In this document: piece by piece, positions 34,255 through 56,673 of the stretch | How positions within the stretch are numbered: the first letter of the stretch is position 1 | Layout: each line of letters starts with the position of its first letter | Assembly: GCF_000420805.1 (NCBI RefSeq) | Contig: NZ_ATVQ01000003.1 | Location: 62,001 to 126,000, forward strand | Direction of reading: 5' to 3' | DNA: 64,000 nucleotides | Origin: Yaniella halotolerans DSM 15476 | GTDB lineage: Bacteria > Actinomycetota > Actinomycetes > Actinomycetales > Micrococcaceae | Translations under genes and position numbers: made by a program | Notes under the pieces: model-generated | What the model was told of the DNA's origin: nothing | Databases searched by the model: none | Seen by the model: the letters and a program-made list of their open reading frames with translations, nothing else

Positions 34255-34402
34255 CGTTGTTTTCTCCTGCTCGACAGAAATTCAAGCTGACGAGATGTTT
34301 CATTGGCCATTGCGTCACCTCGGGTTCATATATCTCAAGGAAGCTCAGTGTTGGTCCGCGTCGACCGCTCACACTTAGATTGCTTTGAGGGGGACATCCG
34401 TC

Positions 34403-37007: not shown

Positions 37008-37009
37008 CA

Positions 37010-37067
37010 GCCCGCCCGCCCCAACCGATCCAGCACACGCTTGTTCGGTTGGGGTGGGCGGCTTTTT
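37010..37067 (+). terminator. Strong terminator after phnE
   Basis: GCCCGCCCGCCCCAACCGA pairs with TCGGTTGGGGTGGGCGGC with one bulge and one mismatch. A run of five T follows (37063-37067). Confidence 0.9.
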
Positions 37068-37150
37068 CTAGTCGATGTCACAAACTTTGACTAGCCGCGG
37101 CAGGTAACACGGTCTTAGGCTGGGACATGAAACTCTTGAAGGAGGCTCTT

Positions 37151-37918
37151 ATGTCGAACGTTAAAGCACTCGCCGCAACGCTGACCGAACAACATGAATC
37201 AGGTCAGGTGCTCATCTTGCCGACGGTTTGGGACACCTGGAGTGCCGATGTCGCAGCTGAGGCCGGTTTTCAAGCACTGACGGTTGGAAGTCACCCGGTG
37301 GCCGATGCCCTTGGGAGCGCTGACGGTGAGCACATGGACTTCGTGCACTACCTTGAGGTCATCAAACGGATTACCGAAACCGTCGATGTGCCGGTGAGCG
37401 CCGATGTTGAGTCGGGCTACGGTTTGGAACCAGCAGAGCTCATCCAACGGCTGCTGGAAGCCGGGGCGGTCGGAGCAAATATTGAAGACGTCGTGCACAG
37501 CGAAAACAGCCGTGTTCGTGATCGTGCTGAACACGCCGATTATATCGCTGCAGCACGTCAAGTGGCTGATGAAGCCGAAATCTCTTTTGTGATTAACGGA
37601 CGAACCGACGCGATCAAACTGGGGACTGAAGTCTTTCCTGATCCGCTAGCCGAAGCCGCTGAACGCGTGGCGCTTATGGAAGAAGCTGGAGCACGCGCGG
37701 TGTATCCGGTTGGCGTCTCCTCTGCAGCAGAAATTACCCGGCTGGTGCAGGCCGTTTCTGTACCAGTCAATCTCACTGCCCATCCGGTCGAAGGCCACGC
37801 CGCCGGCGATGTAGCAACGCTCAAAGAACTGGGCGCACGTCGTATTACTTTCGGACCACTGTGGCAGAAATGGCTCGGTGAAGTCTCGGCCCAACAACTT
37901 TCAACATGGATCCCCTAA
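37151..37918 (+). CDS. Isocitrate lyase / phosphoenolpyruvate mutase family protein
   Basis: A 255-residue TIM-barrel protein of the ICL/PEPM family. LPTVWDTWSADVAAEAGFQA, VPVSADVESGYG with the metal-binding Asp-x-Glu, and GANIEDVVHS fit the subgroup usually annotated only at family level. Members cleave or rearrange C-C or C-P bonds. Lying after a phosphonate-type transporter it could act on a phosphonate, but the terminator separates the two and the PEP mutase lid motif EDK..KxNS is not evident. AAGGAGG lies 6 nt before the ATG at 37151. Confidence 0.85.
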   Translation: MSNVKALAATLTEQHESGQVLILPTVWDTWSADVAAEAGFQALTVGSHPVADALGSADGEHMDFVHYLEVIKRITETVDVPVSADVESGYGLEPAELIQRLLEAGAVGANIEDVVHSENSRVRDRAEHADYIAAARQVADEAEISFVINGRTDAIKLGTEVFPDPLAEAAERVALMEEAGARAVYPVGVSSAAEITRLVQAVSVPVNLTAHPVEGHAAGDVATLKELGARRITFGPLWQKWLGEVSAQQLSTWIP

Positions 37919-42723: not shown

Positions 42724-43275
42724 ATGAAAATCGGTATTCTCAACGGTTCACTTCGTGCCGAACGCGCGACCGAACCCGTCGCAAAATTCGTACACGAAAT
42801 TGCTGCACAGCGCGACGGTTTCTTCGAATACGAATACGTTGACCTCGTTGATTACAACGTGCCGTTGCTGACCAGCCCGGTGCATCCGATGGTTGCCAAT
42901 AAGAGCCACAAGGATGCAAATGTCCAGCGCTGGTCGGATAAAATCGATAGCTTCGATGCCTTCGTTTTTGTTACTCCTGAATATAACCATGGCGTTCCCG
43001 GCGGCTTTAAGAACGCCGTGGATTCGCTTGGCCCAGAATGGGTTGGCAAGCCAGTGGCGTTTGTTGGACACGGTTCTGTTGGTGGCGTGCGTGCCATTGA
43101 ACAGTGGCGTCAGATTGTCGCAAACTTCTCGATGCCGGTGGTGAGGGCAGAGTTGAACTTCAACATGTTCTTCGACTGGCAGGACGGTGCGTTTTCACCG
43201 GCGGAACGTCATAGCGCTGAAGCAAACGGATTGTTTGATCAGTTGGAAGCGCTGACCACTACACACCGCAGCTAA
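42724..43275 (+). CDS. NADPH-dependent FMN reductase family protein
   Basis: A 183-residue flavodoxin-fold reductase. The FMN phosphate loop is GSLRAERATEPVAKFV, and the flavin face is VTPEYNHGVPGGFKNAVDSL. VAFVGHGSVGGVRAIEQWR follows, as in the NADPH-dependent FMN/quinone/azo reductases. AAGGAG lies 9 nt before the ATG. The palindromic repeats upstream suggest regulation, perhaps by a redox or xenobiotic sensor. Confidence 0.9.
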   Translation: MKIGILNGSLRAERATEPVAKFVHEIAAQRDGFFEYEYVDLVDYNVPLLTSPVHPMVANKSHKDANVQRWSDKIDSFDAFVFVTPEYNHGVPGGFKNAVDSLGPEWVGKPVAFVGHGSVGGVRAIEQWRQIVANFSMPVVRAELNFNMFFDWQDGAFSPAERHSAEANGLFDQLEALTTTHRS

Positions 43276-43290
43276 GGCCGCTGGAGATAG

Positions 43291-43326
43291 CCGCACCCGG
43301 TGTTCTGTGCGGAACCCCGGGTGCGG
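43291..43326. terminator. Terminator between convergent genes
   Basis: CCGCACCCGG (43291-43300) pairs with CCGGGTGCGG (43317-43326), and TTTC follows. It separates the FMN reductase and MgtC genes. Confidence 0.85.
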
Positions 43327-43334
43327 TTTCTGCG

Positions 43335-44051
43335 TTAATCGTGGTCTTGGTCCTCGGCCGTGACCTCAACGACACCGACGACTTCACTGAGATGGCGTAA
43401 GAGTGGCTCGGGTGGTTTTTGCTTTCCATGGTTAAACTCCATGATGGCATCCACGACATGTCCCTGCTCGGTGCGTTGGCGCCGGGTTTGGGACAGGGCC
43501 ACGTCATAACCTTTATTCGAAGCGACCTGCAGAATGTCGCGGAGGACACCGGCGCCGTCGGTGTACCGGACGGTGTAGACCTCGGTTCCGTGCTGGCGGG
43601 GCAAACGTTGGATCAGTGAGGTCAGGGCCGTCACCGCAAAGAGATATAGGACCACGGTGAGAGCTGCGATGATTGGCATGCCGGCGCCGCAGGCCATTCC
43701 CACCGCAGCGGTCACCCATACGGAAGCCGCGGTGGTCAGACCGGAAACAATATTGCGTCGAACGAAGATGACACCGGCACCCAGAAACCCGATGCCGGTG
43801 ACGATTTGTGCCGCAATACGCGAGGGGTCCAAGACGACGTCGTCACCTAAAACATGGGCAAACCCGTATGACGACACCAGCGTGAAGAGTGCCGACCCCA
43901 TCCCTACAAGAATATGGGTCCGGGCGCCGGCTGACTTCTGTCGGAGTTCACGTTCAAGACCGATGATCCCGGACAGCACGAATGAGCACACCAGCAGTAT
44001 CGACTCGGTGATCAGCGTTTCTGAGACCCATGCGAACTCCATACGCCCCAC
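43335..44051 (-). CDS. MgtC/SapB family membrane protein
   Basis: A 238-residue protein. Residues 1-150 are the MgtC membrane domain (GLERELRQKSAGARTHILVG, then RIAAQIVTGIGFLGAGVIFV). A C-terminal ACT-like cytoplasmic domain follows (GVLRDILQVASNKGYDVALS). MgtC proteins help cells cope with low Mg or other stress, often by modulating ATP synthase or phosphate uptake; the role here is not fixed. It lies 38 bp downstream of the MFS gene on the same strand. Confidence 0.9.
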   Translation of the reverse strand: MGRMEFAWVSETLITESILLVCSFVLSGIIGLERELRQKSAGARTHILVGMGSALFTLVSSYGFAHVLGDDVVLDPSRIAAQIVTGIGFLGAGVIFVRRNIVSGLTTAASVWVTAAVGMACGAGMPIIAALTVVLYLFAVTALTSLIQRLPRQHGTEVYTVRYTDGAGVLRDILQVASNKGYDVALSQTRRQRTEQGHVVDAIMEFNHGKQKPPEPLLRHLSEVVGVVEVTAEDQDHD

Positions 44052-44089
44052 GATACGTGGCCAGGGCGGGCAAGCCTAGGGCGGTTGAG

Positions 44090-45397
44090 TTATCCAGCGG
44101 CGGCCTTGTTGCGCTGCTGGTACCCAATGGCGACCACGATGAGCAAGATCGCTGCGAGGACGGCTCCCATGGCAAAGGCAATGAAGTTGGATCCGGTGCC
44201 GAAACCTAGGGCCAAGAGGAGACCGCCGACCTGTGGTGCAGCGACAGCGCCAAGACGGCCCACGCCCAGCGCCCAACCCAATGCTGTACCGCGTAGGTGG
44301 CTCGGGTAATGATTCGCCACGGCTGCAATGACGAGGCACTGGGTGCCGTGGGTGCCAACACCTGCTAGCACCAGCGCGACATACACAGCCCAGACCGGTG
44401 GGCTGGCCAGCAGGACAAGCAGTGCCACGCCGGCCAGGCCCGCGGCTGCTGCACCCGCGGGAACCGGGCCGAAGCGATCGCCTGCCCACGCAGTCACAAC
44501 TGAACCAACGACCGCTCCAATGTTGAGCGACAGGGCAAAGGTCAGGGCGGAACCAAGGTCGTATCCTGCACGCTCCATCAGGTTCGGCAACCAAGTGCCA
44601 AGCCCGTACCAAGCAAAAAGCGTGAAGAGTGTGATCAGGGCAAACAGCACAGAAATGCCCAAATATGGTGCGCGGAGCAAGGAAGAGAAACCGGCGCTGG
44701 AAGTATCAGCTTCGGACTTTTCAGCGGTCTGCTCGGTCGCGGGTTCCGCGGATGGCAGCGTCTCGGGCAGGTACTTGAAGCCCAGCGGAACGATGACCAC
44801 AAGTGCTACTGCTGCGACCAAGAACATGGATGGCCAGCCAAACGCTGGGATGAGTGGGATCCCCAGCAGGGCTGCCAGTGAGCCACCAATTGGCACACCG
44901 GACATCATGAGCGTGGCGATCGATGAGCGCCATTTCTGCGGCACCAGTTCTGACACCATGGCATTCGCCGATGGAACGAGTCCACCAAGACCAATACCTG
45001 CGACCAGGCGAAGTCCGCCAAACACCCAGGCATTTGGCGCAAAGGCGCACGCGATGGTCAACACGGAAAAGAGCACAGAGCAGGCCAAGATGGTACGTCG
45101 CCGCCCGAGCACATCGGCTATGCGTCCCGCCAAGAGAGCGCCAATCATCATGCCGATAAAAGCCATCGATCCAACGGTGCCCAGTGAGGCTTCGCTCAGC
45201 CCCCAACCGGGTTCGGCTAGCAGTGAGGACTGGACGGTGCCATACACAATCAGGTCGTAGCCATCGAACACCACCAGTAACCAGCAGACCAAGACGGCTA
45301 TCCATGCTTGGCGGCGGGAAATTGGTGATGCTGTATTCGCAGCAGGGGAATCAGGAGTCTGGCCTGTGGCAGTCCTCGAGCGTGTGGCAGTAGTCAT
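44090..45397 (-). CDS. MFS transporter, aromatic acid:H+ symporter (AAHS) type
   Basis: A 435-residue, 12-helix MFS protein. The AAHS start is VVFDGYDLIVYGTVQSSLLA, the loop 2-3 motif GRIADVLGRRRTIL, and the central loop is long and acidic. Family members import benzoate, hydroxybenzoates and other small carboxylates. It is divergent from the IclR gene, which suggests an organic-acid inducer and substrate (inferred). The ATG at 45397 lies 6 nt from CACAAT (45404-45409), with TTGCAC 18 bp further (45428-45433). Confidence 0.9.
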   Translation of the reverse strand: MTTATRSRTATGQTPDSPAANTASPISRRQAWIAVLVCWLLVVFDGYDLIVYGTVQSSLLAEPGWGLSEASLGTVGSMAFIGMMIGALLAGRIADVLGRRRTILACSVLFSVLTIACAFAPNAWVFGGLRLVAGIGLGGLVPSANAMVSELVPQKWRSSIATLMMSGVPIGGSLAALLGIPLIPAFGWPSMFLVAAVALVVIVPLGFKYLPETLPSAEPATEQTAEKSEADTSSAGFSSLLRAPYLGISVLFALITLFTLFAWYGLGTWLPNLMERAGYDLGSALTFALSLNIGAVVGSVVTAWAGDRFGPVPAGAAAAGLAGVALLVLLASPPVWAVYVALVLAGVGTHGTQCLVIAAVANHYPSHLRGTALGWALGVGRLGAVAAPQVGGLLLALGFGTGSNFIAFAMGAVLAAILLIVVAIGYQQRNKAAAG

Positions 45398-45400
45398 AGA

Positions 45401-45430
45401 CACATTGTGACTGCGGGTACAGTCAATGTG
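45401..45430. promoter_or_regulatory. Candidate IclR operator between the MFS and IclR genes
   Basis: CACATTG...CAATGTG forms an imperfect inverted repeat; the left arm reads CACATTGTGACTG and the right arm, reversed, CACATTGACTG. It covers the MFS -10 hexamer and lies 16 nt before the IclR start, so one dimer could control both genes. Confidence 0.55.
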
Positions 45431-45445
45431 CAAAACTATTCTGGT

Positions 45446-46282
45446 ATGCAGAAACCACAGTTTTTTCGTGATCCACCCCGATATCCGGTGGAGTCAGTTG
45501 ACCACGCATTGGCGCTGATGGAGATGGTCCGAGATTTTGGCCGTGTCCGAGTCAGCGTGGCTGCTGAGCTGCTTGGGATTTCGGTTTCTACGGCACACCG
45601 TTTGATGGCGATGTTGGTGTATCGCGGTTATGCCGAGCAGGATGCATCGCGCCGGTACGTTCCAGGTCCTGCCATGGGGCTCACACCAGCTGGGTTGTCG
45701 TGGAGTGCAGAACTGCGACATCGAGCCCGGACCCATATGGAGCAGCTGACACAGCAGGTTGGTGAGACTTCGAACCTGGTGATATTGGCTGGTGACGCCG
45801 TGCGGTTTCTTGCCTCGGTTGAGCATAAGCATGCCTCGCAGCTCGACGTTGCTGCAGACGCAATGCCGGGTCAGCTCGATATTGTGGGGGATCGTAGGGG
45901 AGTGGTGCTACCAGCTGATAAAGCTTCCGGTGGTAAGGCGGTGCTTGCGCAGTTGAGTAAAGAGCAAGTGCAGTCGATCTTTCGGCGTGCTGCAGAACTC
46001 CGAGGCGCCCCCGTTGACACGTCGAGATTAGACAGTCTCATTAACGAGTTGGCGATCATACGAGCAAGAGGGTTTGCCATTAACTTCGAGGCCACAGAAG
46101 TCGGAGTCAGCGCCGTTGCGGTTGCCATACACGATGGTCAAGGTGCACCAATCGCGGGCTTGAGCGTTTCGATTCCACAGGATCGCTTTAGCACCGTCAT
46201 CGATGCTGGTTTGATCAAACAGCTCACCAATACCAAAGCCCAGCTTGAAACATCCTTGGATGATTTTGTGGTTGTTGAGTAA
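45446..46282 (+). CDS. IclR family transcriptional regulator
   Basis: A 278-residue protein. The winged HTH occupies residues about 18-80 (VDHALALMEMVRDFGRVRVS, then LLGISVSTAHRLMAMLVYRG). The IclR effector domain follows, with GETSNLVILAGDAVRFLASV and ASGGKAVLAQLSKEQV. IclR proteins typically control uptake and breakdown of small organic acids. It faces the MFS gene across the candidate operator. The ATG at 45446 is preferred over the GTG/ATG at 45407, which would cover the operator. Confidence 0.92.
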   Translation: MQKPQFFRDPPRYPVESVDHALALMEMVRDFGRVRVSVAAELLGISVSTAHRLMAMLVYRGYAEQDASRRYVPGPAMGLTPAGLSWSAELRHRARTHMEQLTQQVGETSNLVILAGDAVRFLASVEHKHASQLDVAADAMPGQLDIVGDRRGVVLPADKASGGKAVLAQLSKEQVQSIFRRAAELRGAPVDTSRLDSLINELAIIRARGFAINFEATEVGVSAVAVAIHDGQGAPIAGLSVSIPQDRFSTVIDAGLIKQLTNTKAQLETSLDDFVVVE

Positions 46283-46432
46283 TGTGGTTTCTACTGTGCA
46301 GAATCCAGTTTGGTTCCGGTGCATATGGGCTTTGCTGTGTCGATTTGTCTGAATTTTTGTCGCGATGCCGAACGCGGACTATATACCTACCGGTAGAGTG
46401 TGGACACGAGATGTTCGCGGACTGGGGGCCTT

Positions 46433-47428
46433 ATGAGATCTGTCGCTTCGCAAGACATTTGGAATCTGGTATATCGAACGGCCAGACGAGCTGGTTTTGT
46501 GTCGGCCGTAGCAGAAATTTTTGCTGATTCGACCACGGACGCAGAACTGCGGGGGAAGTCATCAGTAGGATTGGACCACCTGTTCTACTACTTTCAAGCC
46601 GCAGCCAAACATCTGATCAATGTGGCACCTTCGATAAGCCAAGCATCAGTGACACCATCGATGATCACTGTGGATGCTGATCACGGTCCGATGCAATTCG
46701 CGTACCGACAAGCCGAAGCAGCGTTGCTCGAGGCTGCCCAGACAAGCGGGATTGCTGTATTGCTGATAAAAAATGCTTTTGCTGGCGGAGAGCTTGGGTA
46801 TTATGCACGCCGTCTAGCCCAAAGGGACATACTGTCGATTTCGATGGCTAATAGCCCAGCTGTCATGAGTGTCGGCGGGAGCTATGACCGTCTGGTGGGG
46901 ACGAATCCGTTGAGCTACGGCGTACCGCTGGCTGACGACCGGGCGATCGTTATTGATCAAGCCTCATCATCAACGGCCCGAGTAAATTTTCAAAAATATG
47001 CAAACCAAGGCCAGCCGATTCACGAGGACTGGGCCCTAGACAAGCATGGCCAACCGACAACCCAGGCTGCTGAGGCATTGGCTGGGACACTGTTGCCCTT
47101 CGGCGGGTATAAAGGTGGCAATATAACGTTGTTGGTTGAATTTATTGCGATGCTTGGCGGCGGAGATTCGTCCTATGAAGCGGCCCCGTATATTGACGGG
47201 ACGCGCCAACAGGGGATCGGCGCAAGCATCATTGCTATTGATACTGGGAAAATGCCCGGGTATACCGCACGCATCGATGAGTTGTTGCACAGTTTCACCC
47301 GTGATCATGGTAGTAAGATTCGGGTGACAAAGCTGACTGACGTGCCGCAGTCAGTGGAAGTATCGAGACGTCTGTGGACGCAGCTTGAGCACTACGCCGA
47401 AAATGGTTCACTCGATCAGACTGAGTGA
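46433..47428 (+). CDS. Ldh-family (malate/L-lactate/sulfolactate dehydrogenase-like) protein with altered active site
   Basis: A 331-residue protein with the Ldh2 fold: GTNPL at about 156-160, FGGYKGGN at 223-230, and SMANSPAVMSVGG at 137-149. Canonical members have SHG near the N terminus and NHFG before GYY. Here these read SSVG (Val45) and NAFAGGELGYY (Ala117 at the His position), so both usual histidines appear replaced. The Asp at the start of IDQASSSTAR is kept. The family oxidises malate, lactate, sulfolactate or ureidoglycolate, or reduces cyclic imines; this member may do something else. GGGGGCC lies before the ATG at 46433. Its 3' end overlaps the convergent MetE-like gene by 13 bp. 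Confidence 0.82.
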   Translation: MRSVASQDIWNLVYRTARRAGFVSAVAEIFADSTTDAELRGKSSVGLDHLFYYFQAAAKHLINVAPSISQASVTPSMITVDADHGPMQFAYRQAEAALLEAAQTSGIAVLLIKNAFAGGELGYYARRLAQRDILSISMANSPAVMSVGGSYDRLVGTNPLSYGVPLADDRAIVIDQASSSTARVNFQKYANQGQPIHEDWALDKHGQPTTQAAEALAGTLLPFGGYKGGNITLLVEFIAMLGGGDSSYEAAPYIDGTRQQGIGASIIAIDTGKMPGYTARIDELLHSFTRDHGSKIRVTKLTDVPQSVEVSRRLWTQLEHYAENGSLDQTE

Positions 47429-49026
47429 CCATAAGTTACTCGTAATTGGTCACGCGCTTGGGTCAGGAGACCGAGGTCTCGCTCTGCTGCCCCGGCAGAC
47501 TGGATCGGATTATCGGCAAATGTGGCAAAGCCACAGTCGGTATTGAGTAGTACTCGGTCATATCCGAAAAACTCGATGGCTTTTTCAGCTCGAGCCATGA
47601 CATCGTCGACGGTATCGTTGGCCGAGTCTTTCTGATTGAGCACACCAACGCCAACCCGTTGATCGTCACGGATCCCAGCGAGTGCCTCCAATTCAGCAGC
47701 TCGCGGGGTACATAGTTCCAGAATGAGGGTACCAACATTAATCGATCTGAATAATGGCACCAGCGGTGCGTATCCGCCGGACAGCGCCGAGGACTCGTCG
47801 GTGGTCCAGTTCCCACGACAGACGTGTAGGGCGAGACGGTCTGCGGGGAAGCCTTCGGTGACCTGTTCTAAGAGATATTGTGCGAAGGCTAGCTCTTCGT
47901 CTTGGGCTCCTCGTTCGCCCAATGCACCGCACATGAACGTGCGGCCACCCTGGCCTTGTTCCCCGTAAAGCACCTCGGTGAGGACGGGTTCATCAAATTG
48001 CACAATGCTTGTGCCTTGAGCAAGGAGGTGTGCAACTTCTTCGCGCAGAATCCGAACGATGTCGGTGGCAAGGGCCTCCCGGTCATCGTAGGCGCGGTCT
48101 GAAATGCATTCCATCCACATGGTTCGTGTCAGCAGGTACGGGCCGGGCAGGCTCAATTTGACCGGTTGTCGCGCCACTGACTGTGCGAACTCGACCTCGT
48201 GCACGGTGAGGGGGTTGTCTCGTCCCAGGGGACCAAAGACGGCAGGGTGACGGACTTCGCCGGCCGGTACATCAAGAGCCTGCAGTTCTTGATTGAACTG
48301 TTCAGGATCATCAACGTAAGGCAAAAGATCAGTGACTGGAATGAGCTGGCAGTTTTGCAGAATGCCACCGACGAATGAGGAGTAGTTGTCGCGGCGCTGT
48401 TCACCGTCGGTGACGACATCGATTCCGGCGCGTTCTTGTGCAGCGAGCGCCAGTTGTACGGCATCGTCAGCGTCGGCTTCGAAATCTTCGGCGCTCAGGC
48501 GGCCTTCGAGGTGCTGATGCAGTGAAGACAGCAACCACCGTGGACGGGGCCAACTGCCCAGGCTCAGGACGGAGAGGGGGAGTATCGGGGCGGCGCCAGC
48601 TGGTTCGGGCAGACTGTTGGGAATGAACGGTTCGACCACCTCTTGGGTGATCGCCATTTGCGGTTTCTTGCGCTTCTTCTTGAGTTTTAGCGGCTGAAGC
48701 GCGATATCAGGATCCACATTCGTGGTGCTGACAGCTTGGACCGGCTCGACAACATCTGCTGGTGGTGTGAACGGTCCCTTGCTGACCAAGAAGCGCCATA
48801 CACCAGGTTCGGTATGCACATTGATGAGTTCGTTTTTGGTCAGGTTGCACCAGGAAGGTAAGTCAACTTCCACCGTGGAATCCCGGGAGATAATTTCTAA
48901 GAGTTCCCCGGGAGTCAATGGATCAATGTGTTTACGGATCAAAAGGAGCAGCCCGTTGCCACAATCTAAGTCTCCACCATCAAAACTGTCGTGTGGGGGA
49001 TAGGGGTGCACGGTGGTTTCAGTCAT
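47416..49026 (-). CDS. TusA-like domain fused to MetE-type (cobalamin-independent methionine synthase) zinc domain
   Basis: A 536-residue fusion. Residues about 12-85 are a TusA/SirA-like domain (FDGGDLDCGNGLLLLIRK) with Cys22 at the sulfur-carrier position, but CGNG instead of CPxP. A linker (86-150) has a Lys-rich patch at 113-121. Residues 150-536 are a MetE C-terminal-like barrel. Its zinc ligands are His401-x-Cys403 (LALHVCRGN), Glu437 and Cys498 (LNTDCGFAT), and DGEQRRDNY is kept. The MetE core transfers alkyl groups to a zinc-bound thiol; epoxyalkane:coenzyme M transferase is a known relative. Tethering a TusA domain suggests the acceptor or donor thiol is carried on a protein. AAGGAGC precedes the ATG. 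The 5' neighbours are DsrE- and TusA-like genes. Confidence 0.85.
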   Translation of the reverse strand: MTETTVHPYPPHDSFDGGDLDCGNGLLLLIRKHIDPLTPGELLEIISRDSTVEVDLPSWCNLTKNELINVHTEPGVWRFLVSKGPFTPPADVVEPVQAVSTTNVDPDIALQPLKLKKKRKKPQMAITQEVVEPFIPNSLPEPAGAAPILPLSVLSLGSWPRPRWLLSSLHQHLEGRLSAEDFEADADDAVQLALAAQERAGIDVVTDGEQRRDNYSSFVGGILQNCQLIPVTDLLPYVDDPEQFNQELQALDVPAGEVRHPAVFGPLGRDNPLTVHEVEFAQSVARQPVKLSLPGPYLLTRTMWMECISDRAYDDREALATDIVRILREEVAHLLAQGTSIVQFDEPVLTEVLYGEQGQGGRTFMCGALGERGAQDEELAFAQYLLEQVTEGFPADRLALHVCRGNWTTDESSALSGGYAPLVPLFRSINVGTLILELCTPRAAELEALAGIRDDQRVGVGVLNQKDSANDTVDDVMARAEKAIEFFGYDRVLLNTDCGFATFADNPIQSAGAAERDLGLLTQARDQLRVTYGHSV

Positions 49027-49051
49027 GGCTGCTCCTTTCGAATCCGGAGGT

Positions 49052-49420
49052 TTAGTAGGTGACGCTCGGGGTGCCGTCGGCCAAGAACTCAACGAGCTTT
49101 GCGCCGCCCACAACGGTTGCGCCCGGGATCAAGTTTTCGGGCTCAATGCCGCGTTTCTTCACACACGGGGCACATACGTAGACCTGGCCACCGGCTTCAA
49201 CAAAGTTTGAGATCAATTCTCCAAGCGGGGCGAAGCCCTCTTCGTGAATGTCATCCGCATAGCCCTGCTCGGCTAGGCGCACACCTTCGGTGGATAGGAA
49301 CACCATGGTGTCCTGATCTGAGCCGACTGCAGCGTTTGCTACTACGAAACCCACTGTGGCTTTATCGGTATCGTTTTTGGCGTTCGTGATCGAGACACAG
49401 AATTTTCCAGTTGCCGACAT
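49052..49420 (-). CDS. DsrE family sulfur-carrier protein
   Basis: A 122-residue DsrE/DsrF-like protein. KFCVSITNAKNDTDKATVGF starts the fold, and QVYVCAPCVKKRG holds Cys83 and Cys86 at the site where TusD/DsrE proteins carry a persulfide. Related proteins relay sulfur between TusA and downstream acceptors. It is the middle gene of the operon: 6 nt after the stand-alone TusA gene and 25 nt before the TusA-MetE fusion. Confidence 0.88.
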   Translation of the reverse strand: MSATGKFCVSITNAKNDTDKATVGFVVANAAVGSDQDTMVFLSTEGVRLAEQGYADDIHEEGFAPLGELISNFVEAGGQVYVCAPCVKKRGIEPENLIPGATVVGGAKLVEFLADGTPSVTY

Positions 49421-49426
49421 ATGGTC

Positions 49427-49654
49427 TTACTCCTTGGCTTGGATGAAATACTCGGGGTGATCTTGGTATAACAGCGGATTGCTGGTCAGTCGACACCATG
49501 CTGGAATGTCCTCGGGTGCACCGGCATCGGTGGCGGTCAGTTGAATAACCTCACCGGGTGCAAGTTCATCGCGCAGTTTCAATTTGAGTTTGACGACGAG
49601 TTCACCACAGCCCATATCTCCGGCATTCCAGGCAATATCAGGTTGCGGTTTCAC
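49427..49654 (-). CDS. Stand-alone TusA-like sulfurtransferase
   Basis: A 75-residue TusA-like protein: IAWNAGDMGCGELVVKLKLK, with Cys16 in a CGEL motif instead of CPxP, and DIPAWCRLTSNPLL near the end. It resembles the TusA-like domain of the fusion gene, so the two could have the same origin. TusA proteins carry sulfur as a persulfide. The GTG at 49654 is chosen because AAAGGAG lies 9 nt upstream; the frame extends further without homology. It is the first gene of the operon, in a 226-bp gap divergent from the antiporter operon. Confidence 0.82.
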   Translation of the reverse strand: MKPQPDIAWNAGDMGCGELVVKLKLKLRDELAPGEVIQLTATDAGAPEDIPAWCRLTSNPLLYQDHPEYFIQAKE

Positions 49655-49880
49655 GCTGTGTGGCTCCTTTATGGTGATGTGCAGACTGATGCTCCACGCC
49701 GAATCTACGATACTGCAGCAGCAAGTGTGCCCCAAGCTTTCAATGACTCACCTGCAGGTAAAGTCCTCAAGCGCAGCGTGAACATCGGTGCGGATCAACT
49801 GTCAGAGGTAGACGCCTACAAACCATTCCGGACAAGATGAAGTAGATCGCCGTTCGCCGCTGCCGCTGGGAGGATGAAAC

Positions 49881-50174
49881 ATGCTGGACATCGTGATGAT
49901 CAGCATCGTCATCCTGTTGCTGTTTAACCTGGTGATGGCACTGATTGTCGTCGGACGCCGCACCAACGGTAACGGTTGGCTGCTCGGGCTGTTACTCACC
50001 GGCACTACCGGAGCTGCGTTGGCTGCGGTTATGGCAGCCTTGTTTGCCGAAGAACTTTCACGGTTTACCGATTTGAGCCTCGTCCTCATGGGGCTGGCCG
50101 CCCTGCCGGTGGTCATGCGGGTCATGCTGATCCGCCGGGCCGATGCTGCACCAAGGGGTGCCTGTGATGAGTGA
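49881..50174 (+). CDS. mrpF: Mrp cation/proton antiporter subunit F
   Basis: A 97-residue protein with three membrane helices, matching the MrpF/MnhF family in size and in the LVMALIVVGRRTNGNGWLLG region. It is the first gene of the antiporter operon. GGGAGGATG lies just upstream. Its end overlaps the subunit G gene by 8 nt. Confidence 0.82.
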   Translation: MLDIVMISIVILLLFNLVMALIVVGRRTNGNGWLLGLLLTGTTGAALAAVMAALFAEELSRFTDLSLVLMGLAALPVVMRVMLIRRADAAPRGACDE

Positions 50175-50472
50175 TCTTGTGGTTGCAGTGTTATTGCTGG
50201 CGGGAGGATTCTTCTTCACCGCCGGAACCGTGGGGATCATTCGATTTCCCGATCTTCGCAGTCAGCTACACGCACTGACAAAGGCAGACAACTTAGGTCT
50301 CGGTCTCATGTTTGCCGGTGTTGCGGTCCATTTGGGCAGCTGGTCCACGGCGTTGATTCTCTTACTCATCTGGTTGCTAGCGCTGATCGCTGCTTCCGTT
50401 TCTGCGCGAGTGCTGGCCGGAACTGAACCCGCCTCTGCTGATCAAACGGGGGAGGACTCATGGCGCAGGTGA
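50167..50472 (+). CDS. mrpG: Mrp antiporter subunit G
   Basis: A 101-residue MnhG/MrpG protein with three helices. GFFFTAGTVGIIRFPDLRSQ followed by LHALTKADNLG is the family signature. The ATG at 50167 overlaps the end of subunit F. The stop overlaps the next gene's start region by 13 nt (50460-50472). Confidence 0.92.
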   Translation: MSDLVVAVLLLAGGFFFTAGTVGIIRFPDLRSQLHALTKADNLGLGLMFAGVAVHLGSWSTALILLLIWLLALIAASVSARVLAGTEPASADQTGEDSWRR

Positions 50473-51473
50473 CACCGGTAGATTTTGCGTTGAGTGCGGT
50501 CGTGCTCGTAGGCGTCGCCCTCACGGTATTCATGCGTTCCCGCAAGGGAGAGGTTATGGCGTTCCTAGGGCTCGGCGTGGTGTTGAGCCTGGTCTGGTTT
50601 CGGCTCACTAGCCTTGACATCGGACTGGCGGAAGCCGCACTCGGCAGCGGTATCCTCAGCGCCGTGCTCGTCGTCCTCGCGGCATCAACCAACAGCCAAG
50701 CCGCAGAAACGCGCCAGCAGGCGATGCAGTTCAAGGCTGCCCCGCGTTGGCTTACCGGACTCTTAGGCGGGATTTGTGGTGTGGTGATAACCACGGTGGT
50801 CGCCGGAATCTGGTGGCGCACTGAACACGTTTTGCCTCAGTGGGAAACAGCGCTGGACCCGGCAATGAGACAGCTGCCAGTCGACCACGGAATTACCGGT
50901 GTGTTGCTGGCATTCCGTGCCTATGACACCTTGCTGGAGTCCGCCGTCCTCATGTTTGCGGCCCTGCTAGCACTGACGCTCATGCCTGACAACTCGTTGC
51001 GATCGGCTACCCGGTCCAGAGCCAACCTACTCCATCAGGCCCAAGCTGCCAGCTTTAGTTGGGTCTTTCGGCTCATGACCCCGCTACTGTTCCTGGTCGG
51101 CCTGTGGTTGCTGTTTGCAGGGACCACCGAAGCCGGCGGAGCGTTTCAATCGGGTGCTGTCATCGCCGGCATGCTGATCTTGTTGCACCTTGCCGGCGTG
51201 CAACTCGACCACTTCATCCGTTACTGGCTTACTCCGCTGGCAATCGCGGGCGTTAGCGTCTTTGTGCTCGCCGGCTTGCTGGGCCCGTTAAGCGGCGAAG
51301 CCTGGTTCACTTGGCCGTCTGCTTTCGCTTACGGCGCCATCCTGAGCGTGGAAATCACGCTCACCGCCGGTATCGCTGCAGCCCTCTTTATGCTTTACCT
51401 CGCCATGCTGCCCCCATTGGGCAATGTGCTCGACAACCCAGGGGAGCCAGTGCATCAGGAGGCGAAGCCATGA
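50460..51473 (+). CDS. Fused DUF4040 (MbhD/E-like) and MnhB antiporter subunit
   Basis: A 337-residue membrane protein. Residues 1-80 match DUF4040/MbhD (LSAVVLVGVALTVFMRSRKG, then SLDIGLAEAALGSGI), a central part has an MbhE-like segment, and the second half is MnhB (TPLLFLVGLWLLFAGTTEAGGAFQSGAVIAG broken across that stretch). In Bacillus-type Mrp the MbhD/E part belongs to MrpA; here it is joined to subunit B. It is part of the proton/cation path. Its ATG overlaps subunit G and its stop overlaps subunit C. Confidence 0.85.
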   Translation: MAQVTPVDFALSAVVLVGVALTVFMRSRKGEVMAFLGLGVVLSLVWFRLTSLDIGLAEAALGSGILSAVLVVLAASTNSQAAETRQQAMQFKAAPRWLTGLLGGICGVVITTVVAGIWWRTEHVLPQWETALDPAMRQLPVDHGITGVLLAFRAYDTLLESAVLMFAALLALTLMPDNSLRSATRSRANLLHQAQAASFSWVFRLMTPLLFLVGLWLLFAGTTEAGGAFQSGAVIAGMLILLHLAGVQLDHFIRYWLTPLAIAGVSVFVLAGLLGPLSGEAWFTWPSAFAYGAILSVEITLTAGIAAALFMLYLAMLPPLGNVLDNPGEPVHQEAKP

Positions 51474-51766
51474 CAACTGCCACCTGGTATCTCTTGCTTG
51501 GCGTCATCGTGGTGACCATCGGAGCCCTGAGGCTGCTCACGGTGCAAGATCTCGTCGCGCGACTGATCGCACTGAATATCACCGGTGCGGGCTCGTTGAT
51601 GGTGTTGGTATCGTTGGCTGCCCGCTCTGAACCAATCGACCCTGTCTTATCAGCCTTGGTTATCACCGGACTGGTCATCACCGCCGCGTTTACGGCGACG
51701 GCCGCAGTACTCATCCGCCGCATTGAAGACACCCCCGATCTTGAAGACGGGGAGGCCTCTTCATGA
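51470..51766 (+). CDS. mrpC: Mrp antiporter subunit C (NuoK-like)
   Basis: A 98-residue NuoK-like protein with three helices (YLLLGVIVVTIGALRLLTVQ, then LVARLIALNITGAGSLMVLV, then DPVLSALVITGLVITAAFTA). AGGAGG lies 8 nt before the ATG, which overlaps the previous stop (ATGA). The longer open frame from 51311 has no homology before this point. Confidence 0.88.
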   Translation: MTTATWYLLLGVIVVTIGALRLLTVQDLVARLIALNITGAGSLMVLVSLAARSEPIDPVLSALVITGLVITAAFTATAAVLIRRIEDTPDLEDGEASS

Positions 51767-53373
51767 CACTTGCCGAATTCAGCACAGGCGCCCTGGTGCT
51801 AACGCCACTGTTGAGCGCAGCAGTCATGGCCCTTTGCACCCATGTGCTCCGCCGCCTCCTTGGTGTAGTTGTTGCAGTGCTCATCGTGGGGTTTACCGTA
51901 CCGGTGGTCATACACCTCGGATCCGGTGAGGTTGTTGAAGTTGACCTGGGCGCCTACGGGGCTCCGCTGGGAATCGTGTTGCGAGCAGACGGACTTTCGG
52001 TGCTTTTTATCGCCATGACTAGCCTGGTCGGCCTGGGGATCACCGCTTTCGCAGCTGCCACCCCTGAAGCCACCGGGGAGCGCATCCAAGCCAATGGACA
52101 AAGCAAGACCGAACATGCGGGTTTCTGGCCGCTATGGTTTGGTTGCTGGGCAGGCCTCAATGCTGTCTTTGTTTCCGGAGACCTCTTCAACACCTACGTT
52201 GGATTAGAACTCGTAGGGCTGACAGCAGTCGGATTGGTCGCCCTGGGTGGTCAAAAGTCTTGGCCGGCAGCCCTACGCTATCTCTTTATCGCCGTGCTGG
52301 GCTCCTTGCTGTTCCTAGTCGCCGTCGGTTTGTTGGTTTCCGTCACAGGCACCTTGGACATCAACCAGGCGGCCCAACAGCTCACCGATAACCCGGAAGC
52401 CGCTGGTGTTGCCACAGTGGCGATGGTGCTTCTCAGCATCGGGCTAGCCATGAAAGTTGCCCTGGTCCCAATGCACCAGTGGTTAGTGCCGGCACACTCC
52501 GGAGCACCATCTGCGGTATCTCCAATCCTTTCTGCACTGGTTATCAAAGGTGCCTTGTTCGTATTCCTCCGTAGTTGGCTCTACGTTGCTGCACCGGCCT
52601 ACTCCCCGGCGTTGACCGAAACTTCGGGGGAAGCGCCCTTGAATGTCGCTGAGGCGCTAAGCATCGTCGCCTGGGTCTTTGCGCTGCTCGGTCTCATCGC
52701 GCTGATCGTCGGAGCGATCATGGCACTACGCCAGACCCGACTGAAACCTCTGATCGCTTATTCCACTGTGGCACAGGCCGGGTACTGGTTCCTGCTGTTG
52801 CCAGTGGTCTTCATGCCAACATCTGCGTCACTGGGCGATCCGGGCGTTACCACCTTCGATGCGTCCGAAGTCATTGCCGGCGCGCTCGCAGGCACGGTGG
52901 GTTTGATTCTAGGACATGGCCTTGCCAAATCTGCCCTTTTCTTGACGGCCGGGTATTTCAAAGAACTGTACGGCACAGAAAAAATTGCCGCGCTCAGCGG
53001 CGAGGCACGTTCCCACCCGATGATGGTCATGACCATGGGATTGACCGCCATCGGCCTGGCGGGACTGCCATTCTCACTGTCGTTCACGGGGAAATGGCAG
53101 CTCACCAGCGCAAGCTTGGCGGGTGGTCACTACTGGATCCTGCCGGTGATCATCGTGGCCACGCTCCTATCAGCCGCGTACCTGTTGCGCGCATTTGGGC
53201 CGTTGATGATGGATAATGACCAGGAGAACGCAGCGCACCCCGAACTACACCGCAACTCCATGCCAGTCGTCGCCCAGGTGGCACCATTTACCCTAGGCGT
53301 CTTGACCCTCCTCACCGGGTTCATGGGGACACCCATCTTTGACCTCCTAGAAGTGGGGGCGCCATGGAGCTGA
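51763..53373 (+). CDS. mrpD: Mrp antiporter subunit D (NuoL/M/N-like), copy 1
   Basis: A 536-residue proton-conducting transporter with about 14 helices. GDLFNTYVGLELVGLTAVGL holds the conserved Glu in helix 5, LVPMHQWLVPAHSGAPSAVS holds the helix 7-8 Lys/His region, and QTRLKPLIAYSTVAQAGYWF is the conserved broken-helix segment. It pumps or conducts protons within the antiporter. The ATG overlaps the subunit C stop. Confidence 0.92.
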   Translation: MTLAEFSTGALVLTPLLSAAVMALCTHVLRRLLGVVVAVLIVGFTVPVVIHLGSGEVVEVDLGAYGAPLGIVLRADGLSVLFIAMTSLVGLGITAFAAATPEATGERIQANGQSKTEHAGFWPLWFGCWAGLNAVFVSGDLFNTYVGLELVGLTAVGLVALGGQKSWPAALRYLFIAVLGSLLFLVAVGLLVSVTGTLDINQAAQQLTDNPEAAGVATVAMVLLSIGLAMKVALVPMHQWLVPAHSGAPSAVSPILSALVIKGALFVFLRSWLYVAAPAYSPALTETSGEAPLNVAEALSIVAWVFALLGLIALIVGAIMALRQTRLKPLIAYSTVAQAGYWFLLLPVVFMPTSASLGDPGVTTFDASEVIAGALAGTVGLILGHGLAKSALFLTAGYFKELYGTEKIAALSGEARSHPMMVMTMGLTAIGLAGLPFSLSFTGKWQLTSASLAGGHYWILPVIIVATLLSAAYLLRAFGPLMMDNDQENAAHPELHRNSMPVVAQVAPFTLGVLTLLTGFMGTPIFDLLEVGAPWS

Positions 53374-54875
53374 CAAACCTGCACTACGTGATCCCGCTGC
53401 TGATGGTGTTGTTGTCCTTATCGGCAGCCATCATGATCTTCCCGATGCGCGAGGGCCAGACCAAACTCCGTGCCATCGTGAACCTGACCATCGCTACCGT
53501 CAAAGTCGCCCTGATCGTCTCACTCTTTCCCGTGGTGTTGGGCGAGGGTCTGCACCCCGAGTTCTCGATGTCCTTTGTGCCGGGCATCGACCTCGTGCTG
53601 CGGGTCGACGAACTAGCACTGTTGTTTTCTACCCTGTCGTCGTCACTGTGGCTGCTCACCACCATCTATGCCATCGGGTATCTGCACGGAAAACCTCACC
53701 AGTCCAGATTCTTTGGGTTCTTTAGCCTGTGTGTCACCGCCAGTGTGGGGATCTCACTGTCGGGCAACCTGGTGACGTTCTTGCTGTTTTACGAGATGCT
53801 CACCTTGGTCACCTACCCGCTCGTGGCCCACTGGGGCACCCCAGCAGCTGTTCGAGCCGCCCGCATTTACCTGCGGTACACCCTGACCGGTGGACTCGTC
53901 CTCCTCATTGGCGTGGTTTGGTTGACCATCTATACCGGTGATGTGGACTTCCAGTCGGGCGGGGCCGAGGGTGTCACCGAACTTGCGGAGTACTCACCGA
54001 CCATCGCCATCATCATCTTCATCCTGCTCATCGGTGGCCTGGGCGTAAAGTCTGCGCTGGTCCCGCTACATGGCTGGTTGCCGTTGGCCATGGTCGCACC
54101 GGCACCGGTTTCCGCACTGCTGCATGCCGTAGCGGTAGTCAAAGCCGGGGTCTTCGGCATTGTGCGTGTGGTTGATGACGTCTACGGCATCCAGGTGGCC
54201 AGCGAACTCGGTCTCCTCACGCCGCTGCTGGTGATAGCCAGTCTGACGATTATTTACGGTTCGTATCAAGCCCTTCGTCAGTTGGACTTGAAAAAACGAC
54301 TGGCCTATTCCACGGTCTCGCAGGTTTCGTACGTGGTCCTTGGTTTGACCATGGCCACAGTGGCAGGAACCACCGGGGGAGTGGTCCATCTGGTGCACCA
54401 GGGCATCATGAAAATCACCTTGTTCTTCTGTGCTGGGCTCTTTCAAGAAACCACAGGCGTCACCAACATTCGGGATATGCGCGGTATTGGCTATCGTATG
54501 CCGTTGACTTCGTTGGCCTTCACCATCGGCGCACTGGGCATGATCGGTATACCACCCACCGCGGGCTTTATTTCCAAATGGCAACTGGGCATCGGCGCAT
54601 TGGACTCTGACAACACCTGGGTGATCACGATCCTGCTGGCGTCATCACTCATGAACTCGATGTACTTCTTACCCATCATCTACCGGATGTGGTTCTTCTA
54701 CCCGCAGATCGCCGATGCTCGGGCCGTGGCCGAACCCAAAATGATGCTGTGGCCAGCCCTGGTTACCGCCGGTCTCGTCGTGGGCATCGGTGCCGGAGCC
54801 TCCATCGCCTATGCGCCGCTAGAAATTGCCGAACAAATAAGCGAAGGGGTGTTTTCCGATGTTGATAGCCCTTAG
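53364..54875 (+). CDS. Mrp antiporter subunit D-like (NuoL/M/N-like), copy 2
   Basis: A 503-residue NuoM/N-like protein. NLVTFLLFYEMLTLVTYPLV carries the conserved Glu, LVPLHGWLPLAMVAPAPVSA the amphipathic region, and QLDLKKRLAYSTVSQVSYVV the conserved segment. It overlaps the copy 1 gene by 10 nt and the next gene by 17 nt. Confidence 0.9.
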   Translation: MELTNLHYVIPLLMVLLSLSAAIMIFPMREGQTKLRAIVNLTIATVKVALIVSLFPVVLGEGLHPEFSMSFVPGIDLVLRVDELALLFSTLSSSLWLLTTIYAIGYLHGKPHQSRFFGFFSLCVTASVGISLSGNLVTFLLFYEMLTLVTYPLVAHWGTPAAVRAARIYLRYTLTGGLVLLIGVVWLTIYTGDVDFQSGGAEGVTELAEYSPTIAIIIFILLIGGLGVKSALVPLHGWLPLAMVAPAPVSALLHAVAVVKAGVFGIVRVVDDVYGIQVASELGLLTPLLVIASLTIIYGSYQALRQLDLKKRLAYSTVSQVSYVVLGLTMATVAGTTGGVVHLVHQGIMKITLFFCAGLFQETTGVTNIRDMRGIGYRMPLTSLAFTIGALGMIGIPPTAGFISKWQLGIGALDSDNTWVITILLASSLMNSMYFLPIIYRMWFFYPQIADARAVAEPKMMLWPALVTAGLVVGIGAGASIAYAPLEIAEQISEGVFSDVDSP

Positions 54876-56673
54876 CTTGCTCCTACCCGCGCTCATCGCG
54901 GCCCTCATCCCATTGGCGGGAGTGGCTCGCCCAGCCGTACGTGACACCGCACGCCGCGTTCTTGCGATCGGGGCGCCCGCGGCCATCCTCCCGTCCATCG
55001 CAGCCGCCATCGCTGGACCGGGCACTGAACTCGACGTACCATGGCTGCTCTTCGGGGTCACGTTCGCGGTCGATACCATCTCTCGTGGACTGCTCCTGAT
55101 CGGTGCATTACTCTACGGTGCAGCTCTGATGTCCATCTCATGGGCCAAACTGCGCAACACTGAAAAAGCCTTCGGCACGCTCTCAGCATTTTTACTAGCC
55201 AGCTATACCGGCAACATCGGTGTCTATCTGGCCGCCGATACAATTAGTTTCTACCTGTCATTTGCCGTCATGAGCTTCTCTGCGGTCGGACTAATCGTGC
55301 ACTATCGTGCGCCCGAATCGTATCGAGCCACCGCAATCTATCTGATCATGACGGTCATTTCAGAAACCGCACTGCTGGCCGGGCTCCTACTCACCGCTCA
55401 CATCGGCGGTAATATCCTTTCTGACGCTCCCGAAGCAGTGCTCGCTTCTGAACGCACCGGTCTCATTTTGACCCTGCTGCTCATCGCATTCGGAGTGAAA
55501 GCGGGGACGGCACCGCTGCACGTGTGGCTACCACTGGCCCATCCTGCAGCCCCACCGGCCGCTTCAGCGGTGCTATCCGGTGCCATGGTAAAGGCCGGCA
55601 TGGTGGGTTTCCTCCGGTTCTTCCCGCTTCAGACTGACAACTCCGCTGCGGGAGATACCGCCGCGACCCTAGAGATTTTCGGTTGGGTCCTCATGATCCT
55701 GTCGCTGTTGGGAGCCTTCGCCGCCGCACTGATCGGTGTGGCACAGACCGACGGAAAAGTCGTATTAGCCTACTCGACCATTTCGCAGATGGGCTTCATC
55801 GGTGCGCTCATCGCCGCCGGACTGCTGGACCGCACCCTAGCCGAAGACACCGTGGATGCCGCCGTGCTGTATGCCGTTCACCATGGACTTGCCAAGGGAG
55901 CACTGTTCCTTGGGGTCCCGGTCATCAAACACTATGGACGCGGCCTGTCCGGGATTGTGGTGACCATCGGTATGGTTGGCGCTGGTTTTGCGGTTGCCGG
56001 TGCCCCAATCACTTCCGGAGGCATCGGCAAATATGTTTCCAAAGATGCCGTCGAAGGACTCAAGATTGCTGGCGTAGGACTCGAATACATTCTGCCGCTG
56101 GTTGCTACCGGCTCAATTGTTTTACTGTTGCGATTTTTATGGGTCGTGCTTACCGAACAACGCGATCCACAGCGGAGCCTCGACGGCGAGCTGTTGGCCT
56201 GGTTGGGAGTCTGCATCGCCGGCATCGTGGTGCCCTGGATGATTGGGGCTCAATGGTCGCCGCTGAGCCTGCCAGAGTGGGCCGATCCACAAACCCTGTG
56301 GGATTCCACCTGGCCCATCGGCCTGGGATTGGCCCTAGGTGGCATCTTCTGGTGGCTAAGCAAACGTGGTTGGCTCCCACGGCGCGAGCGTGACCAGCCC
56401 GCTATTCCCGCAGGGGACTTAGTGGCGGCAGAGGAATCCTGGGCCAGGATTCTTCAAGATCGAGGCGGTGCCGCATTAGATTCTGTGCACAACTACACCG
56501 GAAAAGCCCGAGGGGGCGCCGCGACCTTGATGGCAAACATCACCGAATCCACCAATGCTTCGATCGAAAAAACCGAAGACAACGTCCGCCAGTGGCCACG
56601 TTTTGGCACCGGCATCATGCTCCTGCTGACGCTGATCCTGGTTTTGAGTCTCTGGATCGGAGGAACAGGCTAA
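54859..56673 (+). CDS. Mrp antiporter NuoL/M/N-like subunit, copy 3
   Basis: A 604-residue protein. Conserved elements are TISFYLSFAVMSFSAVGLIV, APLHVWLPLAHPAAPPAASA and KVVLAYSTISQMGFIGALIA. A long C-terminal extension follows: a helix, a cytoplasmic stretch of about 90 residues (ERDQPAIPAGDLVAAEESWA and NYTGKARGGAATLMANITES) and a final membrane helix. The Glu in helix 5 seen in the other two is not obvious here (SFYLSFAVMS), so this copy may be structural. The ATG overlaps copy 2. Confidence 0.88.
   Translation: MLIALSLLLPALIAALIPLAGVARPAVRDTARRVLAIGAPAAILPSIAAAIAGPGTELDVPWLLFGVTFAVDTISRGLLLIGALLYGAALMSISWAKLRNTEKAFGTLSAFLLASYTGNIGVYLAADTISFYLSFAVMSFSAVGLIVHYRAPESYRATAIYLIMTVISETALLAGLLLTAHIGGNILSDAPEAVLASERTGLILTLLLIAFGVKAGTAPLHVWLPLAHPAAPPAASAVLSGAMVKAGMVGFLRFFPLQTDNSAAGDTAATLEIFGWVLMILSLLGAFAAALIGVAQTDGKVVLAYSTISQMGFIGALIAAGLLDRTLAEDTVDAAVLYAVHHGLAKGALFLGVPVIKHYGRGLSGIVVTIGMVGAGFAVAGAPITSGGIGKYVSKDAVEGLKIAGVGLEYILPLVATGSIVLLLRFLWVVLTEQRDPQRSLDGELLAWLGVCIAGIVVPWMIGAQWSPLSLPEWADPQTLWDSTWPIGLGLALGGIFWWLSKRGWLPRRERDQPAIPAGDLVAAEESWARILQDRGGAALDSVHNYTGKARGGAATLMANITESTNASIEKTEDNVRQWPRFGTGIMLLLTLILVLSLWIGGTG

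Follow-up and report, generated by a model that had tools for sequence, protein, structure and literature searches.

Closest Described Systems and the TusA-MetE Operon

In the core methionine synthases MesA, MesB and MesC, a MetE-type barrel occurs without a folate half and, according to excerpts of PMC7857596, is thought to be fed methyl groups by a carrier protein. MesD is likewise a single MetE-type barrel (Price et al. 2021, PMC7857596; structure 3RPD), and the excerpts describe its members as about 55% or more identical and as accompanied by a neighbouring MesX (DUF1852). Free TusA and DsrE proteins with conserved cysteines are known from DsrE/TusA trafficking modules, and DsrE-Npsr-TusA is another natural gene fusion that holds TusA and DsrE parts (excerpts of PMC7887784). 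Here, we describe an operon in which a TusA-like domain is fused to a MetE-type zinc barrel and is encoded together with a free TusA-like and a DsrE-like protein. It was found in a stretch of 64,000 nucleotides from Yaniella halotolerans DSM 15476 (contig NZ_ATVQ01000003.1, positions 62,001 to 126,000), which is referred to as the window. From its residues and its gene context, the fusion is tentatively assigned, with a rough probability of 0.48, as a homocysteine S-methyltransferase that would add a fifth family to the core methionine synthases MesA to MesD, with TusA replacing the folate half. This reading is favoured because the zinc and homocysteine residues are kept, a folate half is absent, the carrier Cys is constrained and the TusA/DsrE set is nearly constant.

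The operon comprises the following features (positions in the window; aa, amino acids):

49427..49654, minus strand: free TusA-like gene, 75 aa, GTG start; PF01206 with 34.8 bits
49052..49420, minus strand: DsrE-like gene, 122 aa; PF02635 with 59.1 bits
47416..49026, minus strand: TusA-MetE fusion gene, 536 aa, ATG start; PF01206 and PF01717
48775..48999, minus strand: TusA domain of the fusion, residues 10-84, located where MetE has its folate-binding half

The intergenic gaps are 6 bases long between the free TusA and DsrE genes and 25 bases long between the DsrE and fusion genes; thus, the three genes are compatible with a single transcript. Coordinates and Pfam matches, the latter all above the gathering cut-offs, agree with a preliminary description of the locus, which had listed three minus-strand genes with short gaps for a TusA-like protein, a DsrE-like protein and a TusA-MetE fusion.

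The C-terminal catalytic barrel is common to the fusion and full MetE, whereas the N-terminal folate half of the latter is replaced by the TusA domain; the window's genome gave no match to the respective Pfam model (PF08267). All MetE-like NCBIfam models matching the fusion scored below their cut-offs. With MesD, the fusion shares the same zinc and homocysteine residues as well as a frequent occurrence in genomes that also have MetH. MesD is the only synthase in 22% of cases according to the excerpts of PMC7857596, and the fusion may be so in the 6 of 29 carrier genomes without MetH and without the N-terminal half of MetE (MetE-N). However, nine fusion sequences showed 27-31% identity to the one MesD encoded beside DUF1852. 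Among all fetched loci, MesX (DUF1852) matched only at this MesD reference's own locus and at none of those with the fusion. Unlike MesD, the fusion has a fused TusA domain, free TusA and DsrE partners and three extra conserved cysteines. MesA, MesB and MesC, set apart by their description, have corrinoid proteins of anaerobes as carriers, whereas the fusion has a sulfur-carrier domain. Compared with the DsrE/TusA trafficking modules, free TusA and DsrE with conserved Cys are retained, but both TusA parts have CG instead of CPxP and the partner is a MetE-type barrel. DsrE-Npsr-TusA is joined to persulfide reductase and rhodanese regions rather than to a MetE barrel, and a role in sulfur reduction is proposed for it in the excerpts of PMC7887784. 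No paper describing the operon was found in full-text literature searches, with most subscription papers beyond their reach.

Domain Structure and Active Site of the Fusion Protein

The fusion consists of a TusA domain (residues ~10-84, with Cys22 and Cys60), a variable linker (~85-145) and a MetE-type zinc barrel (~146-530). The Pfam gathering cut-offs were passed for TusA (PF01206; 37.3 bits, residues 27-83) and for Meth_synt_2 (PF01717; 85.1 bits), and the TusA domain aligned with E. coli TusA 3lvj (E 1.9e-7). The MetE N-terminal domain PF08267 was not detected in the fusion, where it reached 15.9 bits compared with a cut-off of 27 and fell on barrel residues 304-351. Thus, the usual N-terminal half of MetE is replaced by a sulfur-carrier domain, as had been described before. 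The structure of the fusion was predicted with a mean local confidence score (pLDDT) of 80.9 and a global fold score (pTM) of 0.74, part of the linker being of low confidence. Its closest fold match was 3rpd, followed by MetE structures; 3RPD is named in the excerpts of PMC7857596 as MesD with selenomethionine.

Conservation was analyzed in an alignment of 79 fusion sequences, i.e., the window and the 78 of 80 loci from the scan described below that had a reading frame of at least 480 aa. The zinc ligands His401, Cys403, Glu437 and Cys498, already noticed in the preliminary description, are present in 79/79 sequences. The same holds for S158, E209 and D345, which align with S433, E484 and D599 of E. 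coli MetE. In the excerpts of PMC7857596, the functional residues of MetE and the core synthases are given, in E. coli MetE numbering, as the zinc ligands H641, C643, E665 and C726 and the homocysteine-binding S433, E484 and D599; the latter three bind the amino-acid part of homocysteine or methionine in MetE and MesD. Both sets of residues in the fusion also align with the MesD encoded beside DUF1852.

The invariant S/E/D amino-acid site speaks for homocysteine or methionine as the substrate and against a protein-thiol acceptor. A possible protein-bound thiol alkyl-transfer system, with a protein Cys or persulfide rather than a small molecule as the acceptor, had been put forward in the preliminary description. 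The conserved three-gene set, the zinc barrel and the carrier Cys of this proposal held up, but the protein-thiol acceptor found no support. Judged from the residues, homocysteine is the likelier acceptor, and methylation of free homocysteine would be the very outcome that the description had named as contrary to its proposal.

The carrier Cys22 is present in 78 of the 79 sequences, the sole exception (L080) being interrupted by a contig end. The motif of TusA is CPxP. In its place, the fusion has CG[NS]G across the relatives, and the carrier Cys is retained with CGxx in both TusA parts of the window, as stated before (Cys22 in CGNG of the fusion, Cys16 in CGEL of the free TusA). Over 78 loci, the median identity to the window sequence was 63% for the TusA domain, 62% for the barrel and 27% for the linker. 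Since the TusA domain is conserved like the barrel and the linker far less, the carrier domain probably contributes to function and is not a mere passenger. Three further cysteines of the barrel are conserved, Cys307 and Cys366 in 79/79 sequences and Cys226 in 78/79, and all three lack a counterpart in the compared MesD.

Distribution and Conservation of the Three-Gene Set

A scan of GTDB contigs with the fusion as the query yielded 118 relatives, and the best 80 loci were retained for counts. By record title, the relatives belong to Actinomycetota, Planctomycetota, Binatota, Burkholderiales, other Pseudomonadota, Anaeromyxobacter, Rokubacteria and others. A DsrE gene lies within 7 kb of the fusion in 76/80 loci, always upstream and on the same strand (76/76). 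It starts less than 1 kb from the fusion match in 51 of these 76 loci and farther away where other genes intervene. DsrE is missing in L053 and L080, which are cut by a contig end near the fusion, and in L038 and L074, which are not cut. A free TusA gene was found within 7 kb in 67/80 loci; eight of the 13 loci without it are the eight loci linked to met genes (see below). The three-gene set is conserved across several bacterial phyla, far beyond chance. Further TusA-MetE fusions and the co-occurrence of the three families, both named before as points to check, were thereby found.

The free TusA-like protein keeps Cys16 in 67 and Cys54 in 66 of 68 sequences, window included. Its carrier motif is CGEL in 50 of them, as in the window, CGDL in 14 and similar in the rest. 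In the DsrE-like protein, Cys83 and Cys86 (C83-A-P-C86 pair) are present in 77/77 sequences, again with the window included. The NCBIfam TusA equivalog (cut-off of 78 bits) was missed by both TusA parts of the window, with 35 and 26 bits, and none of the operon proteins reached the NCBIfam cut-off of TusA, TusD or DsrE2. A second, diverged DsrE-like protein is encoded near the operon in 12/80 loci (e.g., L039 9430-9876 and L064 3835-4239).

Methionine Genes in Genomes Carrying the Fusion

A total of 29 carrier genomes were searched for MetH, MetE-N, PF02574 and methylenetetrahydrofolate reductase (MTHFR). The MetE-N model matched in ten of them, four times weakly. In 6/29 carrier genomes, none of MetH, MetE-N and PF02574 was found. 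These six are the window's genome, four close relatives and the planctomycete G020; some of them may reappear among the family and control genomes mentioned below. Enteractinococcus coprophilus DSM 24083 (locus L007) is among the carriers in which all three were missing. When PF01717 was searched in the window's genome, the fusion itself was the one matching reading frame, and in G020 there was likewise one, of 548 aa, which fits its fusion. MTHFR matched in all 29 carriers, strongly in 23 and weakly (21-42 bits) in six. The carriers with weak MTHFR are the same six that lack MetH and MetE-N.

In the window's genome, a MetX-like gene adjoins a MetY-like gene, so that the organism should make homocysteine; here and in each control genome, the MetX match stayed under the NCBIfam cut-off. 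On another contig of this genome (L101 3191-5507), a LigM O-demethylase (817 bits) is encoded beside a diverged MTHFR of 287 aa, which is the genome's only, weak MTHFR match, and a sulfonate-type ATP-binding cassette (ABC) transporter adjoins. The weak MTHFR beside LigM and the presence of MetX/MetY, together with the lack of MetH and MetE-N, fit a folate-independent route to methionine.

A complementary distribution of the fusion, MetH and MetE-N was considered as proof and rejected, as the pattern in 197 genomes of the family is not clean. MetH was found in 11 of them, MetE-N in 112 (109 above the cut-off) and a near-identical fusion in six, all of which are among the nine genomes of the window's genus. 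The fusion, MetH and MetE-N are all missing from at least 68 of the 197, some of which carry other barrels of ~30% identity. Therefore, the claim is limited to the 6/29 carriers.

Neighbouring Genes

Among the 80 loci, the recurrent neighbours that were named suggest two themes, methionine synthesis (8 loci) and import of a small oxyanion (19 loci). In the former, metY, metX and metW lie just upstream on the opposite strand. Downstream of the fusion in the two Binatia loci L018 (6376-13411) and L023 (9781-16828), there is what looks like a set of zinc-starvation genes beside a zinc enzyme. It encodes a secreted protein rich in His, a CobW/ZigA-type GTPase, a ZnuA-like binding protein and a protein of the MerC family, and a Fur-family regulator was named in L023.

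Genes of a PhnD/E/C-type ABC transporter were found within 7 kb in 19/80 loci and in none of the other 61. PhnD is present in 18 of the 19 (one partial), whereas L053, cut by a contig end, has PhnE and PhnC only. These loci belong to Betaproteobacteria (mostly Burkholderiales), Nitrospirillum, Xanthobacter and one Rokubacterium. In L079, from the Rokubacterium, the transporter precedes the free TusA and does not lie between DsrE and the fusion, which implies either several origins of the link to the transporter or a rearrangement. The binding protein of L039 (5498-6385) is closest to HtxB, of the phosphite/hypophosphite type (280 bits). The 17 aligned HtxB-like copies keep W52, R178 and D206 and have His at Phe158 (positions counted by hand, HtxB numbering). 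A Duganella operon is among those that encode an HtxB-like protein. According to excerpts of PMC5700983, His at that position in the phosphite-binding PtxB serves the third oxygen. With this His and the kept W52, R178 and D206, the protein would be expected to bind a small anion that carries three oxygens. Thus, the HtxB-like protein is a candidate for a new ligand specificity, and the transporter is a lead on the methyl donor. In the window, ~10 kb from the operon and outside it, a PhnD/PhnC/PhnE-like ABC transporter is followed by an enzyme resembling methylisocitrate lyase or phosphoenolpyruvate mutase (34385-37918); its PhnD-like part is below the cut-off and the remaining transporter parts were assigned by eye.

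Two families, c12 (~170 aa, membrane protein by eye) in 11/80 loci and c36 (~520 aa, by eye a secreted protein with a C-terminal anchor) in 10/80, had no Pfam or NCBIfam match. For c36, one chance-level PDB match (E 0.26) and a poor predicted model (pLDDT 51.6) were obtained. Both lie between DsrE and the fusion at the following positions:

L066 2938-5136: c12 and c36
L078 4526-6671: c12 and c36
L116 9511-11592: c12 and c36

On the Paracoccus plasmids L116 (1-25062) and L115, the operon (TusA, DsrE, c12, c36, fusion) is located inside a selenocysteine island: selA and trxB follow it directly, and it is preceded by selB and by a gene of the UGSC family that contains an in-frame TGA. A selenocysteine tRNA (tRNA-Sec) was found near the operon in L116, the one of the two plasmids that was searched. 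In the gammaproteobacterial locus L080 (1563-3329), a UGSC-like gene that likewise contains an in-frame TGA follows downstream of the fusion, encoded on the opposite strand. The selenium link was retained as a side lead, as no SelA homologue was present among the frames of the 80 loci.

In the window itself, the end of the fusion gene overlaps by 13 bases with the end of a convergent gene for an Ldh_2-type dehydrogenase (46400-47428). The top NCBIfam match of this dehydrogenase, L-sulfolactate dehydrogenase, is below its cut-off. The adjoining region (43335-47428) encodes MgtC, a major facilitator superfamily transporter of the aromatic-acid type, an IclR regulator and the Ldh_2 dehydrogenase. 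On the other side, genes like those of multi-subunit (Mrp type) Na+/H+ antiporters, named by eye, adjoin the operon on the opposite strand (49881-56673).

Proposed Mechanism and Alternative Explanations

As a methionine synthase, the barrel would bind homocysteine as the acceptor and yield methionine as the product, as its residues suggest. The TusA Cys of the fusion would hand the methyl donor over to the homocysteine thiolate on the zinc, comparable to the role proposed for the corrinoid proteins of MesA to MesC. The gene fusion, the gene set and the sequence constraint suggest that DsrE and free TusA would load this Cys. Its cargo may be a methyl group on Cys, a methyl group on a Cys persulfide or a methylated sulfur compound. 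A more specific version, which appears distinctly improbable, is that a TusA-Cys persulfide loaded via DsrE and free TusA does the job of vitamin B12, while the HtxB-like transporter brings the methyl donor. The persulfide, a strong nucleophile, would take the methyl group from an environmental donor and, being a good leaving group, would pass it to zinc-bound homocysteine. Methyl-persulfide-TusA would then be the sulfur-based counterpart of methylcobalamin.

Several observations weigh against the assignment as a methionine synthase. The MetH activation domain was found in 23 of the 29 carrier genomes, so that the fusion is usually not the sole route, and the six carriers lacking other synthases represent just two lineages. 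LigM-type demethylation should yield 5-methyltetrahydrofolate (5-methyl-THF), which makes a folate donor possible. The genus-mates G049 and G101 (99% complete) gave no match for the fusion, PF01717, MetH, MetE-N or PF02574, and keep a MetX-like gene beside a PF01053 gene. Since no such synthase was found in them, the absence of other synthases is no proof that the fusion makes methionine; bacteria like G049 and G101 may be auxotrophs or users of another route. The conserved Cys226, Cys307 and Cys366 may point to sulfur chemistry that goes further than simple methyl transfer. The eight met-linked loci come from close relatives (seven titled Binatia/Binatota, one Desulfurellaceae bin18), met genes are missing from this place in a further Binatota locus (L014), and zinc-uptake genes follow the fusion in both met-linked loci that were read (L018, L023). 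Neither a riboswitch, for S-adenosylmethionine or otherwise, nor another relevant RNA control element was found in 18 loci (17 of the 80, and L116) and window 43000-51000. Finally, excerpts of PMC12478193 doubt that the core-MetE homologues of aerobic marine bacteria work: Phaeobacter inhibens, which has such a homologue, is auxotrophic without its other synthase, and this homologue may or may not be a TusA-MetE.

Instead of a methyl group, the amino-acid acceptor of the barrel might receive sulfane sulfur from TusA/DsrE, giving homocysteine or a persulfide with no methylation. According to excerpts of PMC4175335, DsrE/TusA proteins carry thiosulfate. The three extra cysteines of the barrel and the MetY/MetX neighbours in eight loci would suit such a role, and the HtxB-like transporter (19/80 loci) could import a sulfur oxyanion. 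Sulfane sulfur is carried by DsrE/TusA proteins as well. Nevertheless, sulfur delivery is unlikely, as the MetY-like enzyme should already supply homocysteine in the window's genome and no sulfur-inserting enzyme of the MetE fold is known to us. It also appears rather unlikely that the barrel, as a methionine synthase, still uses 5-methyl-THF or another free donor, with TusA/DsrE as a thiol guard or redox partner keeping the active-site Cys and zinc site or homocysteine in reduced form. The LigM-type demethylase may provide 5-methyl-THF in the window's genome, and MTHFR matched in every carrier. However, the fusion has no folate-binding half, the six genomes with weak MTHFR coincide with those lacking MetH and MetE-N, and the TusA domain is conserved as strongly as the catalytic domain.

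The alkyl transferase of the preliminary description, catabolic or detoxifying, would use a Cys or persulfide on TusA/DsrE as the acceptor instead of any free thiol. It would agree with the zinc activation of thiols by MetE-fold enzymes and with the conserved carrier Cys. A system additional to MetH in most carriers, with transporter genes at 19/80 loci, would agree with it, too. It is quite unlikely, however, because a protein-thiol acceptor would have no need of the invariant homocysteine residues. Moreover, positive signs of detoxification, thioether breakdown or epoxide use did not emerge, and dehalogenase, epoxide or thioether genes were absent from the recurrent neighbours that were named, many neighbour clusters being left unnamed. 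The reaction might also run in reverse, with the methyl group of methionine or of an imported methylated oxyanion passing to the carrier in a demethylase that feeds methanethiol or C1 metabolism. The small three-oxygen anion expected for the HtxB-like protein, with W52, R178, D206 and the His at Phe158 as in PtxB, would fit such an import. This direction is highly improbable, as 61/80 loci have no such transporter within 7 kb; among the named neighbours, no C1-oxidation or methanethiol gene stood out, although no search was aimed at such genes.

Significance of a Proposed Fifth Core Synthase Family

A 'MetE-fusion' in the alga Phaeocystis antarctica is cited in the excerpts of PMC12478193, and the title of the cited paper (Rao et al. 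2024, PNAS e2204075121) claims widespread homologues. This algal protein may belong to the same family. If its fused part is TusA, the family has already been named in algae, and the bacterial set of DsrE, TusA and transporter is the addition. A shared family with the alga would make the present one less new and lend weight to the methionine reading.

In pathway annotation, methionine synthesis regularly shows up as a gap. If the fusion is a widespread fifth core synthase, it would provide a methionine route for some bacteria in which MetE and MetH are not found. It would also tie sulfur-carrier proteins to methyl transfer, with a methyl donor that would need neither folate nor cobalamin.

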